DNA of 64,000 bases, taken from NCBI RefSeq assembly GCF_016809835.1, contig NZ_JAFBIL020000006.1, positions 248,001 to 312,000 on the forward strand, read 5' to 3'. Both the position numbers and the translations under genes were made by a program. Below are positions 492 through 26,155 of this stretch, piece by piece. Under the pieces are notes generated by a model. The model searched no databases and was not told the DNA's origin. It saw nothing but the letters and a program-made list of their open reading frames with translations. The stretch comes from Massilia soli. Its GTDB lineage: Bacteria > Pseudomonadota > Gammaproteobacteria > Burkholderiales > Burkholderiaceae_D. Each line of letters begins with the position of its first letter. Positions within the stretch are counted from its first letter, which is position 1.

Positions 492-1718
492 ATGGCAACG
501 TCACAAACGAAAGCGGCCGGCGCGGTCAAGGAAAGCGTCTACGTCTGGGAAGGCAAGGACAAATCCGGCAAGACCGTGCGCGGCGAACTGCGCGCCGGCG
601 GCGAAGCCATCGTCAACGTCACCTTGCGCCGCCAGGGCGTGATGGTGACCAAGGTCAAGAAAAAGGTCCAGCGCAGCGGCAAGAAGATTACCGACAAGGA
701 CATCTCGATGTTCACGCGCCAGCTCGCGACGATGATGAAGGCCGGCGTACCGCTGCTGCAATCGTTCGACATCGTCGGCAAGGGCCACGCCAACCCGTCG
801 ATGGCCAAGCTGATCATGGACCTGCGCAGCGACATCGAGACCGGTACCAGCCTCAACAACGCATTCCGCAAATACCCGCTCTACTTCGACCCGCTGTTCT
901 GCAACCTGGTCGGCGCCGGCGAACAGGCCGGTATCCTGGAAGACCTGCTGACCCGCCTGGCGATCTACAAGGAAAAAACCATCGCCATCAAGGCCAAGAT
1001 CAAGTCGGCGCTGATGTATCCGATCTCGATCCTGGCGATCGCCTTCGTGGTGACTGCGGTCATCATGATCTGGGTGGTGCCGGCGTTCAAATCGGTGTTC
1101 CAGAGCTTCGGCGCCAACCTGCCGGCGCCAACCCTGATGGTGATGGCGATTTCCGAATTCTTCGTGCAATGGTGGTGGCTGATCTTCGGCGGCATCTTCG
1201 GCGCGGTGTACTTCTTCTTCCAGGCCTGGCAGCGCTCGCTCAAAGTGCAGCGCTTCATGGACATCACGCTGCTGAAAGCGCCGATCTTCGGCTCGGTGAT
1301 CCGCAAGGCGACGATCGCGCGCTGGACCCGCACCCTGGCAACCATGTTCGCCGCTGGCGTGCCGCTGGTCGAAGCGCTCGACTCGGTCGGCGGCGCGGCC
1401 GGCAACGCGGTCTACCTCGACGCCACCCGCAAGATCCAGAATGAAGTCTCGACCGGCACCAGCCTGACCTCGGCCATGCAGAACGCCAACGTGTTCCCGA
1501 ACATGGTGACCCAGATGGTGCAGATCGGCGAAGAATCCGGCTCGCTCGACGCGATGCTCGGCAAGGTGGCCGACTTTTACGAAGAAGAAGTCGACGAAGC
1601 CGTCGGCGCGCTGTCGTCGCTGATGGAACCGCTGATCATGGTGATTCTTGGCGTGCTGATCGGCGGTTTGGTAATTGCGATGTACCTGCCTATCTTCAAG
1701 CTCGGCTCGGTGGTCTAG
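492..1718 (+). CDS. pilC: Type IV pilus inner-membrane platform protein PilC
   Basis: This 408-residue protein is the inner-membrane platform on which PilB and PilT act to insert or remove pilins. It shows two T2SSF domains (about residues 70-195 and 275-400), each starting with a helix such as FTRQLATMMKAGVPLLQSF or WTRTLATMFAAGVPLVEAL, and three membrane segments near 175-195, 225-245 and 380-402. Length matches the family. The start follows AGGAAACAGAACC-ATG. In most betaproteobacteria pilD follows directly. Here pilC ends at a strong terminator and pilD is about 10.9 kb downstream. Confidence 0.96.
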   Translation: MATSQTKAAGAVKESVYVWEGKDKSGKTVRGELRAGGEAIVNVTLRRQGVMVTKVKKKVQRSGKKITDKDISMFTRQLATMMKAGVPLLQSFDIVGKGHANPSMAKLIMDLRSDIETGTSLNNAFRKYPLYFDPLFCNLVGAGEQAGILEDLLTRLAIYKEKTIAIKAKIKSALMYPISILAIAFVVTAVIMIWVVPAFKSVFQSFGANLPAPTLMVMAISEFFVQWWWLIFGGIFGAVYFFFQAWQRSLKVQRFMDITLLKAPIFGSVIRKATIARWTRTLATMFAAGVPLVEALDSVGGAAGNAVYLDATRKIQNEVSTGTSLTSAMQNANVFPNMVTQMVQIGEESGSLDAMLGKVADFYEEEVDEAVGALSSLMEPLIMVILGVLIGGLVIAMYLPIFKLGSVV

Positions 1719-1777: not shown

Positions 1778-1820
1778 GGCTACAGCACCGTTACGTGTGG
1801 AATGGCGATCCACCGCCACT

Positions 1821-1850
1821 CGTCGTTCCCGCGGAAGCGGGAACCCATAC
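1821..1850. repeat. Short palindromic intergenic repeat (GTTCCCGC-GGAA-GCGGGAAC)
   Basis: Arms at 1825-1832 and 1837-1844 form a perfect 8-bp inverted repeat, preceded by CGTC and followed by CCATAC. Relatives occur at 15186-15256 and 26127-26155. This copy lies between the convergent 3' ends of pilC and the GGDEF-EAL gene. Confidence 0.75.
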
Positions 1851-1877
1851 CCAGTCCGTATTCGCGGGGGAGCGCGG

Positions 1878-3626
1878 CTATCTTTCGACCAGCCAGGCCA
1901 CCAACGCCTCGGTCGTCAGGGGACGGCTGAACAGGTAGCCCTGCCCTTTATCGCAGCCAAGTTCGCGCACCACGGCGGCCTGCTCCGCGGTTTCGATGCC
2001 CTCCGCCACAGTCGACATGCCCAGGCTGCGCGCCACCATGACGGTCGCTTCCACCAGCGTGCGGTGGTGCGGGCTGGTGTCGACCTGGCTGACAAAGCTG
2101 CGGTCGATTTTGACTGTGTTCACCGGCAGCAGGTGCAGGCTTGACAGCGATGAATAGCCGGTGCCGAAGTCATCCAGCGCCAGCGTCACCCCGAGCGCCC
2201 TGAGCGCATGCAAGCCGCTGGTCACCGATTCATCCTGTGCGGCCAGGCTTTCCGTCACTTCCAGCTGCAGCGCCCCGGCGCTCATGCCGTACGCCGCGAG
2301 AATCTCCTTGACCGTGTCGGCCCATCCCGGTTTCGCCAGCTGGGCGCGCGACAGGTTGACGGCGATCAGGCGAGGCGCCCGTGCACCGAGTTCGGCCTGC
2401 CAGCGCATGAAATCGCGGCAGGCGCGCTCCAGCACAAAGTCGCCCAGCGCGCCAATCAGGCCGCTCTGCTCGGCGATGTCGATAAATTCGATCGGCGACA
2501 CCAGCCCACGCACCGGATGCTGCCAGCGCACCAGCGCTTCAACGCCGGCCGAATAATCCGGACCGTGATCGCCGCGCAGGCCAACCACCGGCTGGTACAC
2601 AACGAACAGCTGCTCCTGCAGCAAGGCCACGCGCAAATCGGATTCGATGTCGCCACGGCGCGCGCTGCGTTCGCGCATTGCCGGTTCGAATACCAGCGCG
2701 CGGCTGCCGCCATCGCGCTTGGCGTCGGCCATCGCGATGCTGGCGTCGCGCAGGATCTCGTCGGCCTCGGCGGCGGCCGCATCGGCCAGCACGATGCCCA
2801 TGCTGACCGGGCAGCTGATGCTGTGGCCATCGACGCGGTAGGGATTGCCAAGCGCCTTGAGCAGGCGCAGCGCGACACTGTGGACGTCGTCGGCGCTGCG
2901 CATCCCGTCGAGCACCACGACAAATTCATCGCCGCCGATGCGCGCCGCCATCTGGGCCGGACCGGATACGGTGAAGATCTGGTCGGTGGGCGGGCGCAGC
3001 GTGGTGCGGATGCGTTCGGCGACCATCATCAGCACCTGGTCGGCGGCGCCATGGCCGAAGGCGTCGTTGATCTGCTTGAAGCGGTCGCAATTGATGAACA
3101 GGACGGCGAAACCGGCCTGCTGGTCCACGCTGCCGCGCTCCAGGATGCGCTGCAGTTGTTCCTGCACCGCGCGGCGGTTCGGCATCTGGGTCAGCGCGTC
3201 GATGCGCGCCGCACTGTCGAGACGGCGCGCCAGCGTTTCCTGCTCGCGCCGCACTTCTTGCGTGACATCCGACAGCGACGCCATGATGCGGCCGCCGTCG
3301 ACCTTCAGCAAGCTGACCGACAGCACCTCGGTGCCGCTGGCGGCCGAACGCAGGTGGCGCAGGTCGACCCGCAGCGCTTCGCAGATCACGCCGGAACTGG
3401 CGGGAAAGGCCGCCGCCATCGGCTGCAGCGTGGGCGCCACGCCGGACAAGACGTCAAACAGGTTGTCCAGGTTACCGTCGGGTGCGAGCGGCATCAGGAG
3501 ATTGGACGACATCGGGTTGAGCATTTCGATCGTCCCGTCGAGGGCGATCTGCACCAGGCCGATCGGGGCCCGGTACAGGAACTGCATCAATGCCTCGTAT
3601 GCGTCGGCATGGTCATTCATGGTCAT
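1878..3626 (-). CDS. PAS-like/GGDEF/EAL cyclic-di-GMP turnover protein
   Basis: A 582-residue cytoplasmic protein with no membrane segment. Order: N-terminal PAS-like sensor (about 10-125), GGDEF domain (about 140-305; GGDEF at 231-235), EAL domain (about 320-575). The EAL domain keeps the catalytic set: E363 of EAL, N424 (VNLS), E456 (EVTE), D485-D486 (DDFGTG), K506 (VKID) and E542 (AEGIE), so phosphodiesterase activity is likely. The GGDEF motif is intact, but no RxxD inhibitory site precedes it. It is the last gene of a pyp-GGDEF-GGDEF/EAL operon, 9 bp after its partner. The first 120 residues resemble those of that partner. ATG at 3620 is an alternative start. Confidence 0.93.
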   Translation of the reverse strand: MTMNDHADAYEALMQFLYRAPIGLVQIALDGTIEMLNPMSSNLLMPLAPDGNLDNLFDVLSGVAPTLQPMAAAFPASSGVICEALRVDLRHLRSAASGTEVLSVSLLKVDGGRIMASLSDVTQEVRREQETLARRLDSAARIDALTQMPNRRAVQEQLQRILERGSVDQQAGFAVLFINCDRFKQINDAFGHGAADQVLMMVAERIRTTLRPPTDQIFTVSGPAQMAARIGGDEFVVVLDGMRSADDVHSVALRLLKALGNPYRVDGHSISCPVSMGIVLADAAAAEADEILRDASIAMADAKRDGGSRALVFEPAMRERSARRGDIESDLRVALLQEQLFVVYQPVVGLRGDHGPDYSAGVEALVRWQHPVRGLVSPIEFIDIAEQSGLIGALGDFVLERACRDFMRWQAELGARAPRLIAVNLSRAQLAKPGWADTVKEILAAYGMSAGALQLEVTESLAAQDESVTSGLHALRALGVTLALDDFGTGYSSLSSLHLLPVNTVKIDRSFVSQVDTSPHHRTLVEATVMVARSLGMSTVAEGIETAEQAAVVRELGCDKGQGYLFSRPLTTEALVAWLVER

Positions 3627-3635
3627 GTGCTGTTG

Positions 3636-4976
3636 TTATCGTGGGTGTTGCGCGTCTGGGTCTGCCGACCAGCAGCTGGTGCGATTGCGGCCGCCGTTCT
3701 TGGCGCGGTACAGCGCCTGGTCGGCGCGCTTCATCAAGGGATCGAGGCTGTCGTCGGCGCCATCGAGGATGGCGATGCCGGCGCTGACCGTGTAGGCCAC
3801 GGCGACGCCGTCAACCATCGCCGGCTGCGCCGCCACCAGTGCCAGCACCCGCTCGGCGCCGGCCAGCGCGCCGGCCTGGTCGGTCGAGGGCATCAGCACG
3901 CCGAATTCCTCGCCGCCGGTGCGCGCGACGATATCGACCTCGCGGAAGGCCGCGGTCAGCACCGCGGCGAAATGGCACAGCACCTGGTCGCCGCCGGCGT
4001 GGCCATGGCTGTCGTTGACCGACTTGAAGTGGTCTAGGTCGAACATGACCAGGGCGGTCGGGCGCGGCACCCGTTCGGAGCGTTTGAGTTCGAGCTCGGC
4101 CTGCTCGAAGAAGGCGCGGCGGTTGCCGATGCCGGTCAGGAAGTCGCAAAATACCGCGCGCTGGCGCGCTTGCGTCGCTTCGCGCTTGTCGGTGATATCG
4201 CGGATGATCAGGCAGTACGCCGCGTCCTTCAGTCCTTCGGCGTCAACCAGCGGCGCGGCCGCGTCGCGGTCCGGCAGCGGCGCCAGCAGCGCGCTGCCCC
4301 AGAACCGGCTGCCGTCGGCGCGCTGGCGCGTTCCCTCTTCCATGCACCAGCCGTTGCGGTCGGCCTCGTGCAGGCGGTCGAGCAGCCCGGCCTCGGTAGT
4401 CGCGTCAGGCGCCGAGAACATCGAGAACGGCTTGCCGATGACGTCGGCGGCGCTAAAGCCTGTGACCCGCCCGATGCTGTCGTTCCAGCCGCGCACGCAG
4501 CCGGCGGCATCGAGCCCGATCAGGGCGTAGTCGGTGATATTGGTCAGGATCGCGTTGAGCCAGGCGTCGCTCTGGCGCAGCTGGCGTTCGCGCTGCACCT
4601 GCTGCGTCACGTCGCTGAGCACCGCCATGATGCGCAGGTGATCGAGCTTGACGATGGTCAGCGACAGGATCATCGGCTGCGCCTTGCCATGTGGCGCGGC
4701 GTTGACCGGAATCTGCAGCGCGTCGCAGATGGTGCCGCTAGGCGGCGCGTAGCCGGCGCACATCGGGCGCAGGTCGGGGGCCACCGATTCGAGCGCCGCG
4801 AACAGGTTCGACAGGTCGCCGCCGCGCGCCAGTGGCATCAACAGCTGCGCCGAGATCGGATTGATCATGCTGATGGCGCCGTCGATGTCGGCTTGCACCA
4901 GGCCCACTGGCGCAAGGTACAGGAACTGGATCAGCGCTTCGTGCTCGAGGCTCATGCCTGGCATGGGATCGTTCAT
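3636..4976 (-). CDS. PAS/PAS/GGDEF diguanylate cyclase, coupled to the PYP gene
   Basis: A 446-residue soluble protein: an N-terminal PAS-like domain (10-125) homologous to that of the next gene, a second PAS domain (about 135-265, including VRGWNDSIGRVTGFSAADVIG), and a GGDEF domain (270-435). The signature is GGEEF (354-358) with the canonical inhibitory site R345-E-V-D348 five residues upstream, so it should synthesise c-di-GMP with product feedback. The start was set at MNDPMPGM because the upstream stop and this ATG share one base (TAATG), implying translational coupling to the PYP gene. A longer in-frame start would run antisense-like through PYP in another frame and was rejected. Confidence 0.93.
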   Translation of the reverse strand: MNDPMPGMSLEHEALIQFLYLAPVGLVQADIDGAISMINPISAQLLMPLARGGDLSNLFAALESVAPDLRPMCAGYAPPSGTICDALQIPVNAAPHGKAQPMILSLTIVKLDHLRIMAVLSDVTQQVQRERQLRQSDAWLNAILTNITDYALIGLDAAGCVRGWNDSIGRVTGFSAADVIGKPFSMFSAPDATTEAGLLDRLHEADRNGWCMEEGTRQRADGSRFWGSALLAPLPDRDAAAPLVDAEGLKDAAYCLIIRDITDKREATQARQRAVFCDFLTGIGNRRAFFEQAELELKRSERVPRPTALVMFDLDHFKSVNDSHGHAGGDQVLCHFAAVLTAAFREVDIVARTGGEEFGVLMPSTDQAGALAGAERVLALVAAQPAMVDGVAVAYTVSAGIAILDGADDSLDPLMKRADQALYRAKNGGRNRTSCWSADPDAQHPR

Positions 4977-5365
4977 TAATGACGCTGCACGAGCACGTAG
5001 CGGATCGCCGCGCCGGGAGCCGCCAGCAGGCGCAGCGCAACCTTCACCGGCCGCATGCGCAAGGTCAGCACGTAGTCGATCGTCGCATCGAGCGCCTCGC
5101 CGGCGTCGAGCGCGTCGTCGAAACGCTGCGCCACCATGAAATTGTTCATGCACGGCGCCACCACCGTAAACAGCGGCTGGCCAAGCACCCGAGCCATGCC
5201 CAGGCCGGCCGCATCGGACTCGAACTGGTTGTACTGGCATACCACGGTATCGGCGTCGAATCCAATCACGCCAAAGCCGAGCTGGTCACGCTCGGCGTCC
5301 GTCATCGCGCCGAGCGCCGAAATCACATCAGGGGAAGAAAAGACGGGCAATTCGCGCTCAGACAT
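4976..5365 (-). CDS. pyp: Photoactive yellow protein (PYP) family blue-light photoreceptor
   Basis: A 129-residue single PAS-fold protein, close to the 125 residues of Halorhodospira halophila PYP, alignable nearly end to end. The chromophore cysteine is C72 in VVAPC (PYP C69). The hydrogen-bonding pair is Y45 and E49 in QYNQFES (PYP Y42, E46). A Met in LRMRPVKV matches M100. PYP T50 and R52 are replaced by A53 and L55. The start MSERELPVF was chosen for CCCGGAG 8 bases upstream; the longer open frame upstream lacks similarity. A 4-coumarate--CoA ligase is divergent and two c-di-GMP genes follow. In known PYPs the p-coumaryl thioester isomerises under blue light. Confidence 0.88.
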   Translation of the reverse strand: MSERELPVFSSPDVISALGAMTDAERDQLGFGVIGFDADTVVCQYNQFESDAAGLGMARVLGQPLFTVVAPCMNNFMVAQRFDDALDAGEALDATIDYVLTLRMRPVKVALRLLAAPGAAIRYVLVQRH

Positions 5366-5540
5366 ACATAACTCCGGGTGATCTTGAGAACTACAAATAC
5401 TATGTTGCAGCCTAGAAACTGATCGTGACATAGGACGTGTCGCAGTGTCAAACGAGCGGACTGATCGCGTCACACAATCGTCCAAGCCGTTGCGCGCTTG
5501 ATACAATCGCTTCCCCTATCGCGCCTCCTGGAAGACAGCC
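5366..5540. promoter_or_regulatory. Divergent control region between pyp and the coumarate ligase gene
   Basis: This 175-bp gap must hold the promoters of both the pyp operon (minus) and the ligase gene (plus). On the plus strand TACAAT (5502-5507) is a plausible -10 about 34 bases before the ligase start, but no good -35 is visible. The pyp ribosome-binding site CCGGAG lies at about 5373-5378 on the minus strand. No clear operator palindrome was found. Confidence 0.4.
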
Positions 5541-6776
5541 ATGCAGCCAGTAACGAGCATCAATGGCGCCGTGCCCCGCTGGTGGGACGACGGCGCCGCG
5601 GTCCGCTTTGTCGCCGACCTGGTGGCGGCCGAACTGGCCCGCCTGCGGCCCGGCACGGCGTTGCCCGCGTTGCCATGGCCGCGCAGCTGCGACCTGGCGC
5701 GCGACCTGGGCGTCGATTCGCTGGAACGCATGGCGCTGGCCAGCGCATTGTCGGCGGCGCTGCAGTTGCACCGCGCCGGGGCCGGCGACGCGCTGGCCGC
5801 CGGACAGACCATCGGCGCGTGGGCGGACGCCGCCAGCGCCGGCCTGGCCCTGCATTCGCACGAGATCACCTTCCGTACCTCGGGCAGCGCCGGCCAGCCC
5901 AAGCCTTGCCCGCATACGCTGGCCTCGCTGTGGGCCGAAGTCGGCGAACTGGCGGCGCTGCTGCCTGGCCACGCGCGCATCCTGTGCGCGGTGCCGTGCC
6001 ATCATATTTACGGCTTCCTGTTCTCGATACTGCTGCCGCGCGCCCTCGGCCTGCACCCTGACGCGGTGCGCGATGTACGCGCCGCCTCGCCAGGCATGCT
6101 GGCGCGCGAGGCGCGCGCGGGCGACCTGGTCGTCGCCTATCCGGACTACTGGCGCGCCGCGCTGGCGGCAGGGCCATTCGCGCCCGGCGTCACCGGCGTC
6201 ACTTCGACCGCACCGTGCCCGCCCGGACTGGCGCAGGATCTGGAAGCGCATGGCCTGGCGCGGCTGCTGCAGGTGTACGGCAGCTCGGAAACCGGCGGCG
6301 TCGGCTGGCGCGACAGCCACGCGCAACCATTTACCGCCTTGCCGTACTGGCGCCGCGATCCCGACGACGCGGCCGTGCTGCTGCGCAGCGGCGCCGGGGC
6401 CGGCAGCTACCCGCTGCAGGACGTTCTGGCGTGGCAGGGCGAACGCCAGTTCCTGCCGGCCGGGCGCATCGACCAGGCGGTGCAGGTGGGTGGCATCAAT
6501 GTGTTCCCCGAACGGGTGGCGCAAGTGCTGCGCGCGCACCCCGCCGTAGCGGCGGCGTCGGTACGCCTGATGCGCAGCGACGAGGGCAGCCGCCTGAAAG
6601 CCTTCGTGGTGCCGCATGCTGGCGCGCAGTCGCCGCAACTGCTTGGCGCAGAACTGCGCCAGTGGGCCGCGGCGCGCCTGTCCGGCCCGGAACTGCCGGC
6701 CGCGATCGCGATCGGCGCCGAGCTGCCGCGCAGCGCCAGCGGCAAGCTGGCCGACTGGATCATCGATGCGGCCTGA
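5541..6776 (+). CDS. pcl: 4-coumarate--CoA ligase, PYP-activation type
   Basis: A 411-residue adenylate-forming enzyme, shorter than plant or general acyl-CoA ligases (about 550). The core has P-loop TSGSAGQPK (113-121), YGSSETGG, GRIDQ, QVGGINVFP and catalytic K402 in SASGK. Short enzymes of this type form the PYP-associated 4-coumarate--CoA ligase family, which makes p-coumaroyl-CoA for attachment to the PYP cysteine. The divergent PYP gene 175 bp away supports this over a general acyl-CoA ligase. Residues 51-62 read DLARDLGVDSLE, resembling a phosphopantetheine site with S60. The substrate assignment rests on context and family, not on substrate-pocket residues. Confidence 0.87.
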   Translation: MQPVTSINGAVPRWWDDGAAVRFVADLVAAELARLRPGTALPALPWPRSCDLARDLGVDSLERMALASALSAALQLHRAGAGDALAAGQTIGAWADAASAGLALHSHEITFRTSGSAGQPKPCPHTLASLWAEVGELAALLPGHARILCAVPCHHIYGFLFSILLPRALGLHPDAVRDVRAASPGMLAREARAGDLVVAYPDYWRAALAAGPFAPGVTGVTSTAPCPPGLAQDLEAHGLARLLQVYGSSETGGVGWRDSHAQPFTALPYWRRDPDDAAVLLRSGAGAGSYPLQDVLAWQGERQFLPAGRIDQAVQVGGINVFPERVAQVLRAHPAVAAASVRLMRSDEGSRLKAFVVPHAGAQSPQLLGAELRQWAAARLSGPELPAAIAIGAELPRSASGKLADWIIDAA

Positions 6777-6853
6777 CGAACGGACATAGATAAAGAATTA
6801 AGTTTCCGCATGCCACTAGGGGTATACTTCGCCTCAAGCAATTTACGGCCCCT

Positions 6854-8842
6854 ATGAAAATCGACCACGACATGACCGCGCTGGCGCCCGCCGCCAGCAG
6901 CGTCGCCCTCTCCGCGCACCCTGTCTACCGCAGCGACATCGATGGCCTGCGCGCCATCGCCGTCCTGGCGGTGGTGGTGTTTCACGCCTTCCCCGCGCTG
7001 ATTCCCGGCGGCTTCACCGGGGTCGACATCTTCTTTGTCATTTCGGGCTTCCTGATCTCGACCATCCTGGCCAAATCGCTGGCGCACGGCAGCTTCAGCT
7101 TCGCCGGGTTCTACGCGCGCCGCATCAAGCGCATCTTCCCGGCGCTGCTGGCGGTCATGGCGGCGACGCTGGCGTTTGGCTGGGTTGCGCTGTTCCCCGA
7201 CGAACTTGCGCAACTGGCGCGCCACATCACCGGCGGGGCCGGCTTCCTGTCCAACCTGGTCCTGTGGAACGAGGTTGGCTACTTCGACCGCGGCGCCGAC
7301 ACCAAACCTTTGCTGCACCTGTGGTCGCTGGCGATCGAGGAGCAGTTCTACATTCTCTGGCCGGTGGTCCTGCTGCTGGCCTGGAAGCGCCGCGTGTCGC
7401 TGCTGGCCGCCGCCGCGGTCCTGGCCGCGCTGTCGTTCGCGGTCAATGTCGGCGGCATCCATGCCTTCCCGAGCGCGACATTCTATTCACCGGCGAGCCG
7501 CGCATGGGAACTGCTGGCCGGGGCGATGCTCGCGTGCGCCTTGCTGCGCCCGGTTCCGTCGCTGACGCGGGCGGTGGCGCTGCTGCCGCCCAACGCGTGG
7601 TCGGCGCTCGGCGCGCTGTTCCTGACCCTCGGCTTCGCACTGATCACCGCGAAGCACCGCTTTCCGGGCTGGTATGCGCTGCTGCCGGTTGCCGGCGCGG
7701 TCATGCTGATCGGCGCCGGACCGCGTGCCTGGTTCAACCGTGTGGTGCTGTCGAACCGGCTGCTGGTCTGGGTCGGCCTGATCAGCTACCCGCTGTACCT
7801 GTGGCACTGGCCGCTGCTGTCGTATGCGCATATCATTGAAACCGGCACCCCCGCGCCGCAACTGCGCGCGGCACTGATGGTGCTGGCGGTGGTGCTGGCC
7901 TGGCTGACGTACCGGCTCATTGAGCGGCCGCTGCGCTTTGGCGAGGGCCGCTATAAGGTCGCGGTGCTGGCCGGCCTGATGGTGGCGCTGGGGGCGGGCG
8001 GCGCATGGATCGCCAGGCAGGGCGGCATGCCGCAACGCGCAGCGGTGCTTGAAAATGCACGGCACCAGAAATCGCTGGTGCTGGTGGAGGACGTGCAGAA
8101 CGCGGCCGCCTGCAAGAAGCGCTATGGTTTCGATTCGCTGTACGAATACTGCCTGATCGGCGATGTCACCCGCGAGCCGACCGTGGCGCTGGTGGGCGAC
8201 AGCCACGCCTACCATGTGGTGGCCGGCCTGACCAAGTACTACGCGAGCCGCGGCGAGAACCTGGTGATGTTCGGCACCCGCCACCCTTACTGGGGCGTGA
8301 AGCCTGGCGACGACCCGTACCAGCAGGCCACCCAGCCGATGCTGGAACTGGCGCTGGGCATCCCGAGCATCAAGACCCTGGTCATCTCGACCCACATCCA
8401 GTTCGACACCAGCTCGCCCGACGGGCGCGTCATGTACAACGCGGCGCGCGACACGATCCGCCGGTTTACCGAAGCGGGCAAGGCGGTGATCATGATGGAA
8501 GACGTGCCGTTGCTGAGTTTTGATCCGCGCGCGTGCATCAAGCGGGCCGGGATCGTCTCGTCGGCGACGCGCGCGCCATGCGCACTGCCGCGCAGCGAAG
8601 TCGAGAAGCGCTCACCCCAGAACGAGGCACTGGTCGCCGGCCTGCTGCAAGAGTTCCCCGGCACTGCCCTGTTCCGTACCAGGGACCTGCTGTGCGACGT
8701 CACGCTGTGCTGGGCGATGAAGGATGGCAACCTGCTGTACCGCGACAATAACCACCTGAGCTACGAAGGCGATCTCTACATCGGCGGCAAGTTCGCCGCC
8801 TGGGATGCGCTGCGCCAATCGCGCATGGACGGGCCGCGCTAG
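6854..8842 (+). CDS. OafA/YrhL-type membrane acyltransferase with C-terminal SGNH domain
   Basis: A 662-residue integral membrane O-acyltransferase. The acyltransferase-3 domain (about 25-380) starts with YRSDIDGLRAIAVLAVVVFH, carrying the family His, and has about ten hydrophobic segments. It is followed by a periplasmic SGNH hydrolase-like domain (about 430-655) with GDSHAYH (nucleophile Ser) and a C-terminal DNNHLSYEG (Asp/His). Such proteins acetylate O-antigen, exopolysaccharide or peptidoglycan sugars; the substrate cannot be told. No glycan cluster is nearby. It lies 77 bp after the coumarate ligase with a possible TATACT -10 at 6823-6828, so it is probably transcribed separately. Confidence 0.9.
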   Translation: MKIDHDMTALAPAASSVALSAHPVYRSDIDGLRAIAVLAVVVFHAFPALIPGGFTGVDIFFVISGFLISTILAKSLAHGSFSFAGFYARRIKRIFPALLAVMAATLAFGWVALFPDELAQLARHITGGAGFLSNLVLWNEVGYFDRGADTKPLLHLWSLAIEEQFYILWPVVLLLAWKRRVSLLAAAAVLAALSFAVNVGGIHAFPSATFYSPASRAWELLAGAMLACALLRPVPSLTRAVALLPPNAWSALGALFLTLGFALITAKHRFPGWYALLPVAGAVMLIGAGPRAWFNRVVLSNRLLVWVGLISYPLYLWHWPLLSYAHIIETGTPAPQLRAALMVLAVVLAWLTYRLIERPLRFGEGRYKVAVLAGLMVALGAGGAWIARQGGMPQRAAVLENARHQKSLVLVEDVQNAAACKKRYGFDSLYEYCLIGDVTREPTVALVGDSHAYHVVAGLTKYYASRGENLVMFGTRHPYWGVKPGDDPYQQATQPMLELALGIPSIKTLVISTHIQFDTSSPDGRVMYNAARDTIRRFTEAGKAVIMMEDVPLLSFDPRACIKRAGIVSSATRAPCALPRSEVEKRSPQNEALVAGLLQEFPGTALFRTRDLLCDVTLCWAMKDGNLLYRDNNHLSYEGDLYIGGKFAAWDALRQSRMDGPR

Positions 8843-8942
8843 GCGCCGATTTGCAACTGACTTCGCTCGGTTTGTCATAACGAATACTGAACCTAATTGT
8901 AGGCAAAATCCTACACACGCATTGCCAGAAACCCAATTTATG

Positions 8943-8972
8943 TTGCGGGCTTGAAATTGGTTTGTCTATAAT
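8943..8972 (+). promoter_or_regulatory. Candidate sigma-70 promoter of the envelope lipoprotein cluster
   Basis: A perfect TATAAT at 8967-8972 is preceded, 18 bp upstream, by a weak TTGCGG at 8943-8948. It lies 35 bp before the first gene of the cluster in an AT-rich stretch that contrasts with the high-GC surroundings. Confidence 0.45.
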
Positions 8973-9006
8973 TTGCCATATCAACAATTATAGGGAAACC
9001 CTGAAA

Positions 9007-9531
9007 ATGAAAACCGCACTTGTACTCGCACTCGCCCTGGCCGTCACCGGATGCGCCACTTATCAAGCACCGCAGATGGCGGCGCCAACCGCGATCCTCG
9101 CGCCAAAGCCAATCCTGGGCAACGGCGGCAAATACATGTCGCCGTACACCGAAGACGGCACCGTCGCGGTTTGGGTGGAAAAAGGCCGTAGTGCGAGCGC
9201 CGGTTCGGCCGTTGGTGGTTTCCTGGGCGCCCAGGCTGGCCAGAAAATGGCTGAACAAATCCCATTCTTCGGCGGCATCATCGGCCAGGCCGTCGGCGAA
9301 AAGGCCGGCCGCGCGGTGGCACTGCAGATGGTTGGCGGCGAAGAATTCATCCGCGCCAACTCGGACCTGTCGTTCAACACCGTGCAAGACCTGGCCGTCT
9401 ACATGTACGCCAAGAACTCGGCGCACAAGGATTTTGCGGAAGCGCTCAAACTGACCCAGGAAATCTACCCGGAGCTGAAGACTGCGTACTATCCGGCGAT
9501 CTACGCCGCGCCGACCATCGCCGCCAAATAA
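9007..9531 (+). CDS. Putative outer-membrane lipoprotein with glycine-zipper-like region, unknown function
   Basis: A 174-residue protein starting MKTALVLALALAVTGC: a lipoprotein signal peptide with lipobox VTGC, so the mature protein begins at C16. A Gly/Ala-rich stretch (about residues 62-105, SAVGGFLGAQAG and GIIGQAVGEKAG) looks like a glycine zipper. No family is recognised with certainty. It is the first gene of a five-gene cluster with LpoB-, COG3014- and YcfL-like genes and a periplasmic hypothetical, pointing to an envelope role. ATG 9007 was preferred over one at 8962 because the signal peptide starts there. Confidence 0.8.
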   Translation: MKTALVLALALAVTGCATYQAPQMAAPTAILAPKPILGNGGKYMSPYTEDGTVAVWVEKGRSASAGSAVGGFLGAQAGQKMAEQIPFFGGIIGQAVGEKAGRAVALQMVGGEEFIRANSDLSFNTVQDLAVYMYAKNSAHKDFAEALKLTQEIYPELKTAYYPAIYAAPTIAAK

Positions 9532-9543
9532 TCGGGACCGACG

Positions 9544-10179
9544 ATGATCAGCAAACTTATTCCAGCTGTCGTGCTGGGCGCCGCCTTCCTGACCGGCTGC
9601 GCCACGCCGGCTGTCGATAACAGCCCCGGCCGCCGCGTCATGTACCAGGATGTTGCATCGACATCGGCCACCGTGGCCGGCGTCGGCGTCGAGTCGCAGG
9701 ACGTGGTCTCAATGACCGACAAGATGGTGCGCGACATCCTGTCGAACCCGCAGATTTCGGGCCGCGCCACGGCGCCGCGCGTGATCGTCGATTCCGAGTA
9801 TTTCACCAACGACAGCTCGTCGCGGATGAACAAGAACGCGATCACCAACCGCCTGCGTGTCGAATTGAACCGTGCGTCCAACGGCCGCCTGGTGTTTGTC
9901 GCCCGCCACTTCGGCAACATGGTCGAGAACGAACGCGAAGCCAAGCGCAGCGGACAAGCCGACAAGGGCACCATCCGCAGCACCAAGGCGCAAGCCGGTG
10001 GCGACTTCCGTCTCGGCGGCAGCATTACCTCGATGGACGCCGCATCGACTAGCAGCGGCAACGTATCGCGCTACCACCAGATCACGTTCGAGCTGGTGGA
10101 CCTCGAGTACGGCACGATCGTCTGGTCGGGCATCTACGAGTTCAAGAAAGAAGCGCGGGATGACATCCTTTACCGCTAA
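9544..10179 (+). CDS. LpoB-like lipoprotein (penicillin-binding-protein activator family)
   Basis: A 211-residue lipoprotein with lipobox LTGC (mature from C20), then an LpoB/CsgG-like fold: SMTDKMVRDILSNPQISG, a central VIVDSEYFTNDSS strand and the end YEFKKEARDDILYR. In E. coli, LpoB crosses the peptidoglycan to stimulate PBP1b and neighbours ycfL. The next genes here are COG3014-like and YcfL-like, a gene set also seen in vibrios. The mature N-terminal linker is short, so whether it activates a PBP is unproven. Its 3' end overlaps the next gene by 20 bases. Confidence 0.82.
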   Translation: MISKLIPAVVLGAAFLTGCATPAVDNSPGRRVMYQDVASTSATVAGVGVESQDVVSMTDKMVRDILSNPQISGRATAPRVIVDSEYFTNDSSSRMNKNAITNRLRVELNRASNGRLVFVARHFGNMVENEREAKRSGQADKGTIRSTKAQAGGDFRLGGSITSMDAASTSSGNVSRYHQITFELVDLEYGTIVWSGIYEFKKEARDDILYR

Positions 10180-11314
10180 ACCGCTGGCCGGCGCTCTGCT
10201 GGCTGCGGCGCTGTGCGCACCGCAGCTGGCGCACGCCGATTACGCGGCCGAGCTGGCGCGCATGAAGGCGGCGCCGCAGAAGGATGCGACGCTGGTGACC
10301 TTGCAGGCCGGCCTGGCAGCACTTTCTGAGAACCGCCTGCCCGAAGCGCGCCGCCATTTCGACGATGCACTAGACGTCATCGAAGGGATGTTCGCCAACA
10401 CCCAGGCCGCCGCCAACGCGCGCTCGCTGTGGTACGAAGAAGGCGCCAAGGAGTTCAAGGGCGAGCCGTACGAACGCGCGATGGCGTTCTATTACCGCGG
10501 CCTGGCTTACCTGATCGAGGCCGACTACGAAAACGCGCGCGCGTCGTTCCGTTCCGGCTTGATGCAGGACGCCTTCGCCGAGGAGCAGCAGAACCGCTCC
10601 GACTTCACCAGCCTGATGCTGCTCGAAGGCTGGACCAACCAGCTGCTCGGCGCAAAAAGCCAGGCTGGCGAGGCTTACCAGGAAGCGGTCCGCCTGCGTG
10701 CCGGTTTGCCGGTACCGCCGGCCGGCGCCAACGTGCTGGTCATCGCTGAACTGGGTGGCAGTCCACGCAAGGTAGGCGACGGCATCGACAACCAGGAGAT
10801 CGTCTACCGCGGCCCCAAGCGCACACCCGAGCGCAGCGTCAGCATCGATATCGACGGCAAGGCTGTCAGGCCGGTGCTGATCGAGGATGTGTTCTTCCAG
10901 GCGTCGACGCGTGGCGGCCGGCCGATCGACCGCTTGATCGCGGGCAAGGCCAGCTTCAAGGAGACCTCCGGCGAAATCGGCATGGCGCTGACCTCGCTCG
11001 CTTCCGAAAGCAGCCTGATGATGTCGGCGGTCGGCGGCAAGGGCGGCGGCAACGTGATGGGTGGCCTGGCCGCCATCGGCGCGATTTCGTCGATCATTTC
11101 GGCCAACGTCAAGCCGCGCGCCGACGTCCGCTACTGGAACAACCTGCCTGAAACGCTTCACGCCACCGCGTTCACGCACACAGGGCTTCCAGCCAACATC
11201 AGCGTCAAGCTGTTCGACGACAGCGGCAACGCAGTGCAGTCGGACAAGCTGGCAATTAACAAATGGATCGACCGGAACGGCAACGTTCTTATCTGGATCA
11301 AGAGCAGAACTTAA
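10160..11314 (+). CDS. COG3014-like periplasmic protein
   Basis: A 384-residue exported protein with a Sec signal peptide ending in AHA (cleavage near residue 23) and no lipobox cysteine. The first half is helical and repeat-like (LAALSENRLPEARRHFDDAL, ERAMAFYYRGLAYLIEADYE), resembling tetratricopeptide repeats. The second half has a Gly-rich hydrophobic stretch (GGKGGGNVMGGLAAIGAIS). It resembles the COG3014 family, usually next to LpoB and YcfL genes. The start is at MTSFTAKPL, overlapping the LpoB-like gene by 20 bases, which suggests translational coupling. The biochemical role is unknown. Confidence 0.75.
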   Translation: MTSFTAKPLAGALLAAALCAPQLAHADYAAELARMKAAPQKDATLVTLQAGLAALSENRLPEARRHFDDALDVIEGMFANTQAAANARSLWYEEGAKEFKGEPYERAMAFYYRGLAYLIEADYENARASFRSGLMQDAFAEEQQNRSDFTSLMLLEGWTNQLLGAKSQAGEAYQEAVRLRAGLPVPPAGANVLVIAELGGSPRKVGDGIDNQEIVYRGPKRTPERSVSIDIDGKAVRPVLIEDVFFQASTRGGRPIDRLIAGKASFKETSGEIGMALTSLASESSLMMSAVGGKGGGNVMGGLAAIGAISSIISANVKPRADVRYWNNLPETLHATAFTHTGLPANISVKLFDDSGNAVQSDKLAINKWIDRNGNVLIWIKSRT

Positions 11315-11329
11315 CATCAAAGGATCACT

Positions 11330-11770
11330 ATGAAACTCGTCGCCGCATGTGTGGCAGCCGTCGTGCTGCTGGCCGGATGCCAGGCCCCGTATCAGGAAGG
11401 CGCCCAGATGGGCTTGCGCGTCAACGACCAAATGGCGCCGAACGCGCGCATCCAGTACGACCAGGTCGTCATTCTCGACAAGGTGCTGCAAAATAGTAAA
11501 AGCGGCAAGATCGCCGTCGAACAGCAGGGCGCGCGCCGCAATCCCACCGGCACCCTCAAAGTGATCGCGATGCTGCGCAACCGCACCGACTTCCCGCAAG
11601 TGCTGGAAGCGCGTACCAGCTACTTCGACAATGGCTTCGCGCCGACCGAAAAGCCGTCGTCGTGGACCCGCATCCACATGGACCCGAACGGCGTCGCGAG
11701 CTATGAAGAGTCGTCGATGGCGGCGCAGGCCGTGGCCCACTACCTGGTCGAGGTCAGGGAGGCGCGCTGA
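11330..11770 (+). CDS. YcfL-like (DUF1425) lipoprotein
   Basis: A 146-residue lipoprotein, MKLVAACVAAVVLLAGC, with lipobox LAGC and mature Cys17. The body has a beta-rich DUF1425/YcfL pattern (KVIAMLRNRTDFPQVLEAR, then ASYEESSMAAQAVAHYLVEV). E. coli ycfL is adjacent to lpoB, matching this order. Its stop overlaps the next start (TGATG), so the two are likely coupled. Function is unknown; an accessory role in LpoB-linked envelope assembly is inferred only from context. Confidence 0.8.
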   Translation: MKLVAACVAAVVLLAGCQAPYQEGAQMGLRVNDQMAPNARIQYDQVVILDKVLQNSKSGKIAVEQQGARRNPTGTLKVIAMLRNRTDFPQVLEARTSYFDNGFAPTEKPSSWTRIHMDPNGVASYEESSMAAQAVAHYLVEVREAR

Positions 11771-12477
11771 TGAAATCACTCATTCTCGCCACCTTGCTGG
11801 CTTGCGCCGGCGTGGCGCAGGCCCAGAACCTGGCGCTGCCGGAACCAATGAAGCTCGCGCCGCTGACCGGCCCGAGCGCGATGGACCCGGCCGAAACGCC
11901 CATGCTGGCGCAAGACGCCGGCAGCGGCGACTTCCGCACGTGGTACACCAGCCAGAAACGCCCTGCGATGGCGGTCTATTTCAACCGTGAACTTGACCAG
12001 CTGCCGCCCGGCTGGGAAGGCCGCAGCCGCCTGCTGATCGAAGACACCATCGTCGCCGGCAAGGAAGTCGACGCCCGCACGATCAGCGTCGGCGTCCAGC
12101 AGAATACCCAGCGCCAGTCGCGCGCACGGTCGCAGCTGGCCAGGCTGTTCGAGCAGTCGCTCGGCGCCGAGCTGAAAAAGCAAAATGTGCACCTGGTCGA
12201 TAGCACGGTGCTGCACCGCAAGCTGGCCGCATCGAACCGCGACACGCGCACCGACATCGAATACGACTCGCTCAGCCGCGCCGCGCGCTTCGTACTGGAA
12301 GTCGAACTGGTGTGCCTGAACGGCGAGTGCGAGGCGGTCGCCAATCTGAAGGACATCCGTAACGGCGACGTTCCGGCCACGGTCAGGCAGAAGATCGGCA
12401 CCCTCGACAACTCGTCCGAGATCGACCGGATCAGCCGCGCACTGGTGCAACGCCTGATGCAGTTCAAAGTAGTTTAA
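11770..12477 (+). CDS. Exported protein of unknown function in the LpoB/YcfL cluster
   Basis: A 235-residue protein with a cleavable signal peptide (LLACAGVAQAQ, cleavage near residue 19). No lipobox or membrane segment follows. The C-terminal half (SRARSQLARLFEQSLGAELK to FVLEVELVCLNGECEAVANLKDI) resembles the CsgG/LpoB-like alpha-beta layout, which would make it a diverged relative of the upstream LpoB-like protein; this is a weak inference. Its start shares one base with the ycfL-like stop. It is the last gene of the cluster. Confidence 0.7.
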   Translation: MKSLILATLLACAGVAQAQNLALPEPMKLAPLTGPSAMDPAETPMLAQDAGSGDFRTWYTSQKRPAMAVYFNRELDQLPPGWEGRSRLLIEDTIVAGKEVDARTISVGVQQNTQRQSRARSQLARLFEQSLGAELKKQNVHLVDSTVLHRKLAASNRDTRTDIEYDSLSRAARFVLEVELVCLNGECEAVANLKDIRNGDVPATVRQKIGTLDNSSEIDRISRALVQRLMQFKVV

Positions 12478-12553
12478 GCAATGCGATGCCGCCGGCCTCG
12501 CCGGTGGCTATTCTCCCCTCCCCGCACACAATTATTTGCCCACAGGTAAGCAT

Positions 12554-12587
12554 TAGGGGTGCCAACGCGACCAGAAACCCCTACAAT
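12554..12587 (+). promoter_or_regulatory. Candidate pilD promoter with embedded inverted repeat
   Basis: GTGCCA (12559-12564), a 17-bp spacer and TACAAT (12582-12587) form a plausible sigma-70 promoter 44 bp before the pilD ATG. A perfect 7-bp inverted repeat, TAGGGGT (12554-12560) and ACCCCTA (12577-12583), overlaps both elements and could be an operator. Confidence 0.45.
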
Positions 12588-12631
12588 AGAACGATGTAGG
12601 GCACTGCCCGTTGACTCGACTGTGGAGCACC

Positions 12632-13501
12632 ATGCTACCGGAAACACTTCTGTTCGCCCCTGCTGGCTCGATCGGCGCCACGCTCGCCGCCGCCCTGTTC
12701 GGCCTGCTGATCGGCAGTTTCCTGAACGTTGTCATCTACCGCATTCCGAAAATGATGCAGCGCGAGTCCGACAACTACGTGGCGAGCGAAAGCGGCAAGG
12801 AACTGCCGCATACCGACCGCTTCAACCTGATGGTGCCGCGCTCGGCCTGCCCGCACTGCGGGCACCAGATCACGGCGATGGAAAACATCCCGGTGATCAG
12901 CTGGCTGGCCCTGCGCGGCAAATGCCGCGCCTGCAAGGCGCCGATCTCGCCACGCTATCCAGCCATTGAACTGCTCACCGGCGTGCTGTCGGCGCTGATG
13001 GTGTGGACCTTCGGCAGCGGCGAAGCCGGCCTGGCCACCCTGGTGTTTACCTGGCTGCTGATCGCGATGACCTTCATCGACTTCGACACCCAGCTGCTGC
13101 CTGACGACCTGACCTATCCGCTGCTGTGGCTTGGCCTGCTGGTCAACCTGCACGGCATGTTCGTACCGCTGCATGAGGCGGTGATCGGCGCGGCGGCCGG
13201 CTACATGATCTTGTGGAGCATCTACTGGCTGTTCAAGCTGGTGACCGGCAAGGAAGGCATGGGCTACGGCGACTTCAAGCTGCTAGCCGCGCTCGGCGCC
13301 TGGCTCGGCTGGGGCATGCTGCCGACGATCATCCTGCTGTCCTCGGTGGTCGGCGCGGTGGTCGGCATCAGCCTGATCGTCTTCACCAAACATGGCCGCG
13401 ACAAGCCGATTCCTTTCGGTCCCTACCTGGCTGCGGCCGGGCTGATCGCCCTGCTGTTCGGAACCCAGATTTCCGGGTTCACCCAGGGCCTGCTGGCTTA
13501 A
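12632..13501 (+). CDS. pilD: Prepilin leader peptidase / N-methyltransferase PilD
   Basis: A 289-residue inner-membrane aspartic protease that cleaves prepilin leaders and methylates the new N terminus. It shows [12 protein letters not shown], the N-terminal four-Cys zinc motif (CPHC and CRAC), and both catalytic aspartates ([13 protein letters not shown] and GYGDFKLL), with about eight membrane segments. ATG 12632, preceded by GGAG, gives normal length; an in-frame TTG at 12611 is the alternative. pilD lies about 10.9 kb from pilC with its own apparent promoter, 2 bp ahead of coaE. Confidence 0.96.
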
Positions 13502-15185: not shown

Positions 15186-15256
15186 ATCGTTCCCGCGAAA
15201 GCGGGAACCTATGCTGAGCGTGCCCGGTATGGATTCCCGCCTGCGCGGGAATGACG
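15186..15256. repeat. Composite palindromic intergenic repeat, two facing hairpins
   Basis: Two palindromes, GTTCCCGC-GAAA-GCGGGAAC (15189-15208) and ATTCCCGC-CTGC-GCGGGAAT (15233-15252), face each other, and the outer ends (ATCGTTCC and GGAATGACG) are roughly complementary, so the whole 70-bp unit can fold into a larger structure. It exactly fills the gap between the convergent yacG and mutT genes and probably also acts as a transcription barrier. Confidence 0.8.
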
Positions 15257-26126: not shown

Positions 26127-26155
26127 CGTCGTTCCCGCGCAAGCGGGAATGGCGT
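26127..26155. repeat. Short palindromic intergenic repeat (GTTCCCGC-GCAA-GCGGGAAT)
   Basis: Arms at 26131-26138 and 26143-26150, preceded by CGTC, match the copies at 1821-1850 and 15186-15256. It lies between the ftsZ stop and the ftsZ terminator. Confidence 0.75.

Follow-up and report, generated by a model that had tools for sequence, protein, structure and literature searches.

Photoactive yellow protein (PYP) is a model photoreceptor, and a locus of Massilia soli raises the question of how a free-standing PYP acquires its chromophore and to which proteins it passes the light signal. We analyzed this locus within a stretch of 64,000 nucleotides (contig NZ_JAFBIL020000006.1, positions 248,001 to 312,000; hereafter the window, the positions of which are used throughout). 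Our answer, which we favor with modest confidence, is that the locus is a blue-light module, gained by horizontal transfer, that targets cyclic di-GMP (c-di-GMP), with a chromophore loaded from a carrier domain and a PYP that acts via a PAS domain shared by two c-di-GMP enzymes. The signalling partners of PYPs are an acknowledged gap (PMC12826048); this and the other papers are cited here from the accessible parts of their text.

The pyp gene (4976-5365, minus strand) encodes a PYP of 129 residues and is followed by a diguanylate cyclase gene (3636-4976, minus strand; 446 residues; Pfam GGDEF, E 1e-42, and PAS, E 3.8e-9), the ATG of which shares one base with the pyp stop codon (junction TAATG). 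The gene for a GGDEF-EAL protein (1878-3626, minus strand; 582 residues; Pfam EAL, E 1.3e-69, and GGDEF, E 2.4e-36) begins 9 bp beyond the stop codon of the cyclase. Divergent from this operon, across an intergenic stretch of 175 bp (5366-5540), lies the gene for a PYP-type p-coumarate ligase (5541-6776, plus strand; 411 residues; AMP-binding domain, E 1.3e-13, and C-terminal domain, E 3.3e-10). An earlier reading of the sequence alone (the sequence-only reading) had described the 129-residue protein with Y45, E49 and C72 (in VVAPC), the overlapping ATG, the 9-bp spacing and a divergent short coumarate ligase, and all of these features were borne out; in the profile search that it had called for, PYP and ligase match TIGR02373 and TIGR02372, respectively, both below the curated cut-offs. 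It missed the domain shared by both c-di-GMP enzymes and the resemblance of the ligase N-terminus to a carrier domain. Neither the shared domain nor the carrier-like one was found described in the open-licence literature searched (supplements excluded), and both are apparently undescribed.

The shared domain spans ~115 residues at the N-terminus of each of the two c-di-GMP enzymes, and its two copies are 52% identical (BLASTP E 1e-38); a DNA repeat (3457-3598 and 4801-4942, 72%) matches it. In the cyclase, the domain (4605-4958, minus strand) is followed by a second PAS and then by a GG[DE]EF active site (GGEEF at 354) with the I-site REVD at 345. The copy in the GGDEF-EAL protein (3261-3596, minus strand) precedes the GGDEF and EAL domains, the latter with the catalytic motifs EALVRW, VNLS, LEVTES, DDFGTG, VKID, AEGIE and GQGY. 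None of 26 members of the shared domain had any Pfam family match at E up to 0.01; the predicted fold is that of a PAS domain (AlphaFold pLDDT 89.8), and the top Foldseek rows are PAS structures (best E 1.9e-4).

The distribution of this domain was compared to that of PYP in a family sample (294 genomes of the window's family) and in a phylum sample (329 genomes). TIGR02373 matches 64 of the 294 family genomes; six of these, with only weak matches (E 8.5e-9 or weaker) in long proteins (open frames of 687-1322 residues; G063, G081, G100, G104, G162 and G215), were dropped, leaving 58 genomes with PYP. The shared domain is present in 59 family genomes, that is, in 58/58 with PYP and in 1/236 of the others (hypergeometric p 4e-61, kinship ignored). 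In the phylum sample, strong matches were found in two genomes, one of them the window's own, and in both the PYP is free-standing; one more match, of 29 bits, is weak, and three other PYP genomes carry the PYP inside open frames of about 900 residues. The single family genome with the domain and no PYP detected (G072) has a cyclase with the shared domain (L186:4985-6352), for which loss of PYP, an assembly gap or another use is possible.

An important distinction is that between two grades of PYP. The TIGR02373 scores of the family sample fall into a canonical grade (15 genomes have one PYP above the cut-off, with 179-198 bits) and a divergent grade (about 61-91 bits), and the two were told apart by profiles built from each. 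Neighbors were counted in two locus sets with overlapping genomes, namely 74 family stretches and 80 ligase loci; the latter lean towards the query because they are the best-scoring 80 of 555 confirmed ones. A shared-domain protein follows divergent PYPs in 59/61 cases (family stretches) and in 31/34 cases (ligase loci), and canonical PYPs in 0/14 and 0/38 cases. The ligase follows canonical PYPs in 14/14 and 33/38 cases, respectively; the canonical PYP of L035 is absent from the neighbor count, its open frame being over the limit of 260 residues. Among the five misses for divergent PYPs, two (L104 and L134) are located at the end of a contig, a long cyclase open reading frame (ORF) runs over the PYP in L056, and the PYPs of L137 and L139 score about equally with both profiles. 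The four-gene layout is thus not special to the window genome; the sequence-only reading knew of no described precedent for it in Oxalobacteraceae, but it is the rule for divergent PYPs in the family sample and is seen again in many genomes.

It could be argued that the shared domain serves solely to bring cyclase and GGDEF-EAL protein together, or recognizes a separate ligand, and that the target of PYP lies elsewhere, such as in the second PAS of the cyclase. Dimer formation is common among PAS domains, the domain is present in both partners, which are fused in two loci, and G072 has it with no PYP detected. However, the co-distribution with PYP, together with the presence of the domain in loci with a single partner (L047, L068, L086 and L088), fits a link of the shared domain to PYP better than pairing alone, and we consider the pairing-only role unlikely.

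The 145 distinct ORFs with the shared domain include 73 cyclase-like, 63 long and 9 of other length. GG[DE]EF is present in 70/73 and the I-site in 69/73 of the cyclase-like ORFs; the long ORFs have EAL and DDFG in 63/63, GG[DE]EF in 46/63 and the I-site in 0/63. These motifs suggest a synthase and a hydrolase that may cooperate under PYP. Five copies of the domain (L187-L191) are located away from any PYP in ~12-kb stretches, apart from the G072 copy (L186) and one on a 4-kb contig (L192). In L078:6491-9049 and L090:6124-8916, a single ORF has the order domain-PAS-domain-GGDEF-EAL, with two copies of the shared domain, an arrangement that could have arisen by loss of the GGDEF from a cyclase and fusion with the partner protein.

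The second domain concerns the chromophore. The ligase aligns with TIGR02372 over positions 9-386 of 386 (319.3 bits, E 2.7e-95; curated cut-off 334.7), and a PYP or PYP domain is present in 74/80 ligase loci, four of the six misses having the ligase at a contig end. Its N-terminal domain (5580-5864, plus strand), delimited by alignment, is predicted to adopt a four-helix fold (AlphaFold pLDDT 90.7) and matches acyl carrier proteins in comparisons of structure as well as of profiles. Ser60 (codon 5718-5720) opens helix 2 (helix 60-73) as part of the DSL-type motif D59-S60-L61. The same fold, with DSL at the start of helix 2, characterizes acyl carrier proteins and the carrier domains of peptide synthetases, and in peptide synthetases, as in this ligase, adenylation and carrier parts are found in one chain. 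Unlike in those carriers, the carrier-like part of the ligase stands before the adenylation part, in place of the first ~150 residues of feruloyl-CoA synthetase; a feruloyl-CoA synthetase profile aligns from position 110 to ligase chain residue 151. The genome encodes one AcpS-type transferase.

The motif DS[LIM] is found at the attachment site in 38/38 rows, in 78/82 rows of a larger set and in 6/6 complete ligases of a further sample. It should be noted that a count restricted to 78 rows omits L172 and one of the two L181 pieces, in which the region is missing, as well as L180 (at a contig edge) and L170 (full length), which have no DSL; its 100% figures are partly by construction, and the figure to use for the serine motif is 78/82. 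The alternative to a loading function is the textbook maturation, in which free p-coumaroyl-CoA reacts with apo-PYP, and the carrier-like domain is a relic, a lid or a docking part without phosphopantetheine. The TIGR02372 family is named as a CoA ligase, and CoA-ligase activity is stated as shown in PMC12826048. The carrier family PF00550 matches the domain with 17.6 bits, under the Pfam gathering score of 20.8, and matches 8/20 carrier-like members at E up to 0.1 (best 1.2e-4); the L170 ligase lacks the attachment serine. Conversely, Asp-Ser at the attachment site in 78/82 rows stands against a mean column identity of 43% for the region, and retention of just the attachment motif in such a region is unexpected for a mere structural part. 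A paper of 2014 cites the PYP ligase only as a hint of 4-coumarate-CoA ligase activity (PMC3992019). We regard the textbook route as a serious possibility, if not the one that we would choose. The L170 enzyme itself (L170:2254-3462, from a Pseudodesulfovibrio metagenome-assembled genome; full length, 268.6 bits with TIGR02372) is possibly a natural CoA-only form.

The observed basis of the favored module consists of gene content, conservation, co-distribution and predicted folds, from which we infer its binding, chemistry and light response. The ligase would adenylate p-coumarate and move it onto a phosphopantetheine arm at Ser60 of its own carrier-like domain, the arm having been attached by the cellular AcpS. 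From this arm, p-coumarate would pass to Cys72 of apo-PYP via thioester exchange, so that free coumaroyl-CoA would not be needed in PYP maturation. Blue light would then isomerize the chromophore and bring PYP to its signalling state, as established for other PYPs. PYP, itself a PAS protein, may bind the shared N-terminal PAS-fold domain of the cyclase and of the GGDEF-EAL protein; this domain may also mediate pairing of the two enzymes. Such binding would shift the balance of c-di-GMP synthesis versus breakdown, in a direction that cannot be read from the sequence.

A family-wide extension, in which the PYP ligase is a self-contained carrier-domain loader with direct hand-off to the PYP cysteine, and clade C PYPs (see below) act via a dedicated partner PAS, is put forward tentatively, as a proposal just short of an even call. 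If it holds, one short domain would mark the c-di-GMP enzymes that answer divergent PYPs, even where they are encoded elsewhere in the genome, and the question of PYP partners would be reduced to a binding assay with two proteins. Chromophore attachment would be viewed differently in light of the carrier-like domain, which would also explain why the ligase is short and divergent, and production of holo-PYP in other hosts would need a phosphopantetheinyl transferase.

All of this presupposes that the window protein is a functional PYP. It matches TIGR02373 over residues 9-128 (72.6 bits, E 2.9e-20; curated cut-off 143.05) and solved PYPs (best E 4.8e-15), and its Y45, E49 and C72 (codon 5152-5150) are the equivalents of Tyr42, Glu46 and Cys69. 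The cut-off was rejected as proof against a PYP, as the divergent PYPs in the sample likewise score below it; TIGR02373 is said to cover about 20% of PYP homologues (PMC9664959). All of 88 distinct divergent PYPs retain Tyr42, Glu46, Cys69 and Tyr94 at the equivalent positions, and the replacements are Thr50 to Ala (83/88), Arg52 to Leu (85/88), Phe96 to Leu (85/88), Tyr98 to Leu (82/88) and His108 to Arg (88/88).

The lack of both a tyrosine ammonia-lyase and a p-coumarate source had been named in the sequence-only reading as grounds against it, and the first half of this was found. No tyrosine ammonia-lyase was detected in the genome (rated 100% complete), in which the sole PF00221 match is a HutH-like enzyme with 606 bits to a solved histidine ammonia-lyase, encoded between ORFs that we take to resemble hutU and hutG. 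This enzyme was rejected as a tyrosine ammonia-lyase, being of the HutH type by similarity. Since it is the only aromatic ammonia-lyase found, p-coumarate would have to be supplied externally or by a side activity, and an external source is probable. The absence of an own chromophore source and the altered pocket (positions 50 and 52) could be taken to mean that the window PYP does not work as a p-coumarate photoreceptor. However, the Tyr42, Glu46 and Cys69 equivalents are retained throughout, and an intact ligase adjoins pyp. Ala50 and Leu52 are moreover the consensus of 984 PYPs, four Ala50 PYPs absorb at 435-465 nm, and a tyrosine ammonia-lyase gene is present in only 5% of predicted pyp operons (PMC12826048). 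That the window PYP is no p-coumarate photoreceptor is improbable.

Clade C PYPs have lost Phe92 and Phe96, are richest in Burkholderiales, are found near GGDEF/EAL genes and have no characterized member, according to Xing, Gumerov and Zhulin 2022 (PMC9664959). The window PYP fits this clade by its divergent residue pattern, its hosts and its GGDEF/EAL neighbors; the assignment is our own and is not taken from the tree of that paper. Likewise, Dohmen et al. 2025 (PMC12826048) report GGDEF downstream of pyp in 29/113 predicted pyp operons and propose blue-light control of c-di-GMP. The link of PYP to c-di-GMP enzymes, which the sequence-only reading proposed, is well supported here as to PYP identity and operon, but in view of these neighbors and operon counts it is already published as a prediction and is not new; the layout was rejected as new to the family for the same reason and as the rule in the family sample. 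Clade C PYPs share with the window a free-standing PYP, the Tyr42/Glu46/Cys69 equivalents, the Phe92/Phe96 loss, Burkholderiales hosts and GGDEF and EAL neighbors; a domain common to the c-di-GMP proteins and a carrier-like ligase domain are not described in the accessible part of PMC9664959. The pyp operons of PMC12826048 also combine pyp with GGDEF/EAL genes, and that paper, as far as its text is accessible, treats the ligase as an ordinary CoA ligase and describes no shared partner domain.

The PYP of Idiomarina loihiensis, for which regulation of biofilm formation has been reported (van der Horst et al. 2009, cited via PMC9664959 and PMC12826048), is also free-standing and located beside a GGDEF protein; it belongs to clade A per PMC9664959, whereas the window PYP falls into the divergent group. 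The Ppd fusions (PYP-phytochrome-GGDEF-EAL, Thermochromatium) likewise couple PYP to c-di-GMP domains, but the window PYP forms a protein of its own, in a locus where no phytochrome was seen. Ppd-type fusions adjoin PYP-type ligases in L156, L161, L163, L167 and L171.

Several loci contain PYPs in other arrangements. In an Acetobacteraceae metagenome-assembled genome (L157:128-3506), two divergent PYPs stand in tandem, each followed by a shared-domain protein, the first of which (370 residues) has a PAS and no GGDEF match. In L043 and L044, a canonical PYP, a ligase and an ammonia-lyase gene lie within ~3 kb of a divergent PYP that is accompanied by the two c-di-GMP genes, i.e., two PYP systems are side by side (L106 is a named Glaciimonas record). 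Three Methylobacterium loci (L182, L183 and L184) differ in gene order and encode on one strand, in this sequence, a separate EAL protein of 269 residues, a divergent PYP, a shared-domain cyclase and the ligase.

The block containing pyp interrupts genes of a type IV pilus operon. Its left border is a pilC-like gene (T2SSF; 492-1718, plus strand; Pfam PF00482 and synteny), and a pilD-like prepilin peptidase gene follows at 12611-13501 (plus strand; PF01478, PF06750 and synteny). The interval 1781-12610, which holds an acyltransferase and further genes in addition to the pyp block, separates the pilB/pilC-like genes from the pilD-like gene; in two of five congeners compared, pilC is directly followed by pilD. 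Positions 1781-6820 had no blastn match at this site in these five; neither PYP nor the shared domain was detected in 16 congeners, of which two are less than 85% complete, and identity to the best homologues found is about 56-74%. Horizontal acquisition of the block is probable. A REP-like palindrome occurs in three copies (1825-1844, 15189-15208 and 26131-26150), with none expected by chance, and one of these copies is located at the edge of the pyp block.

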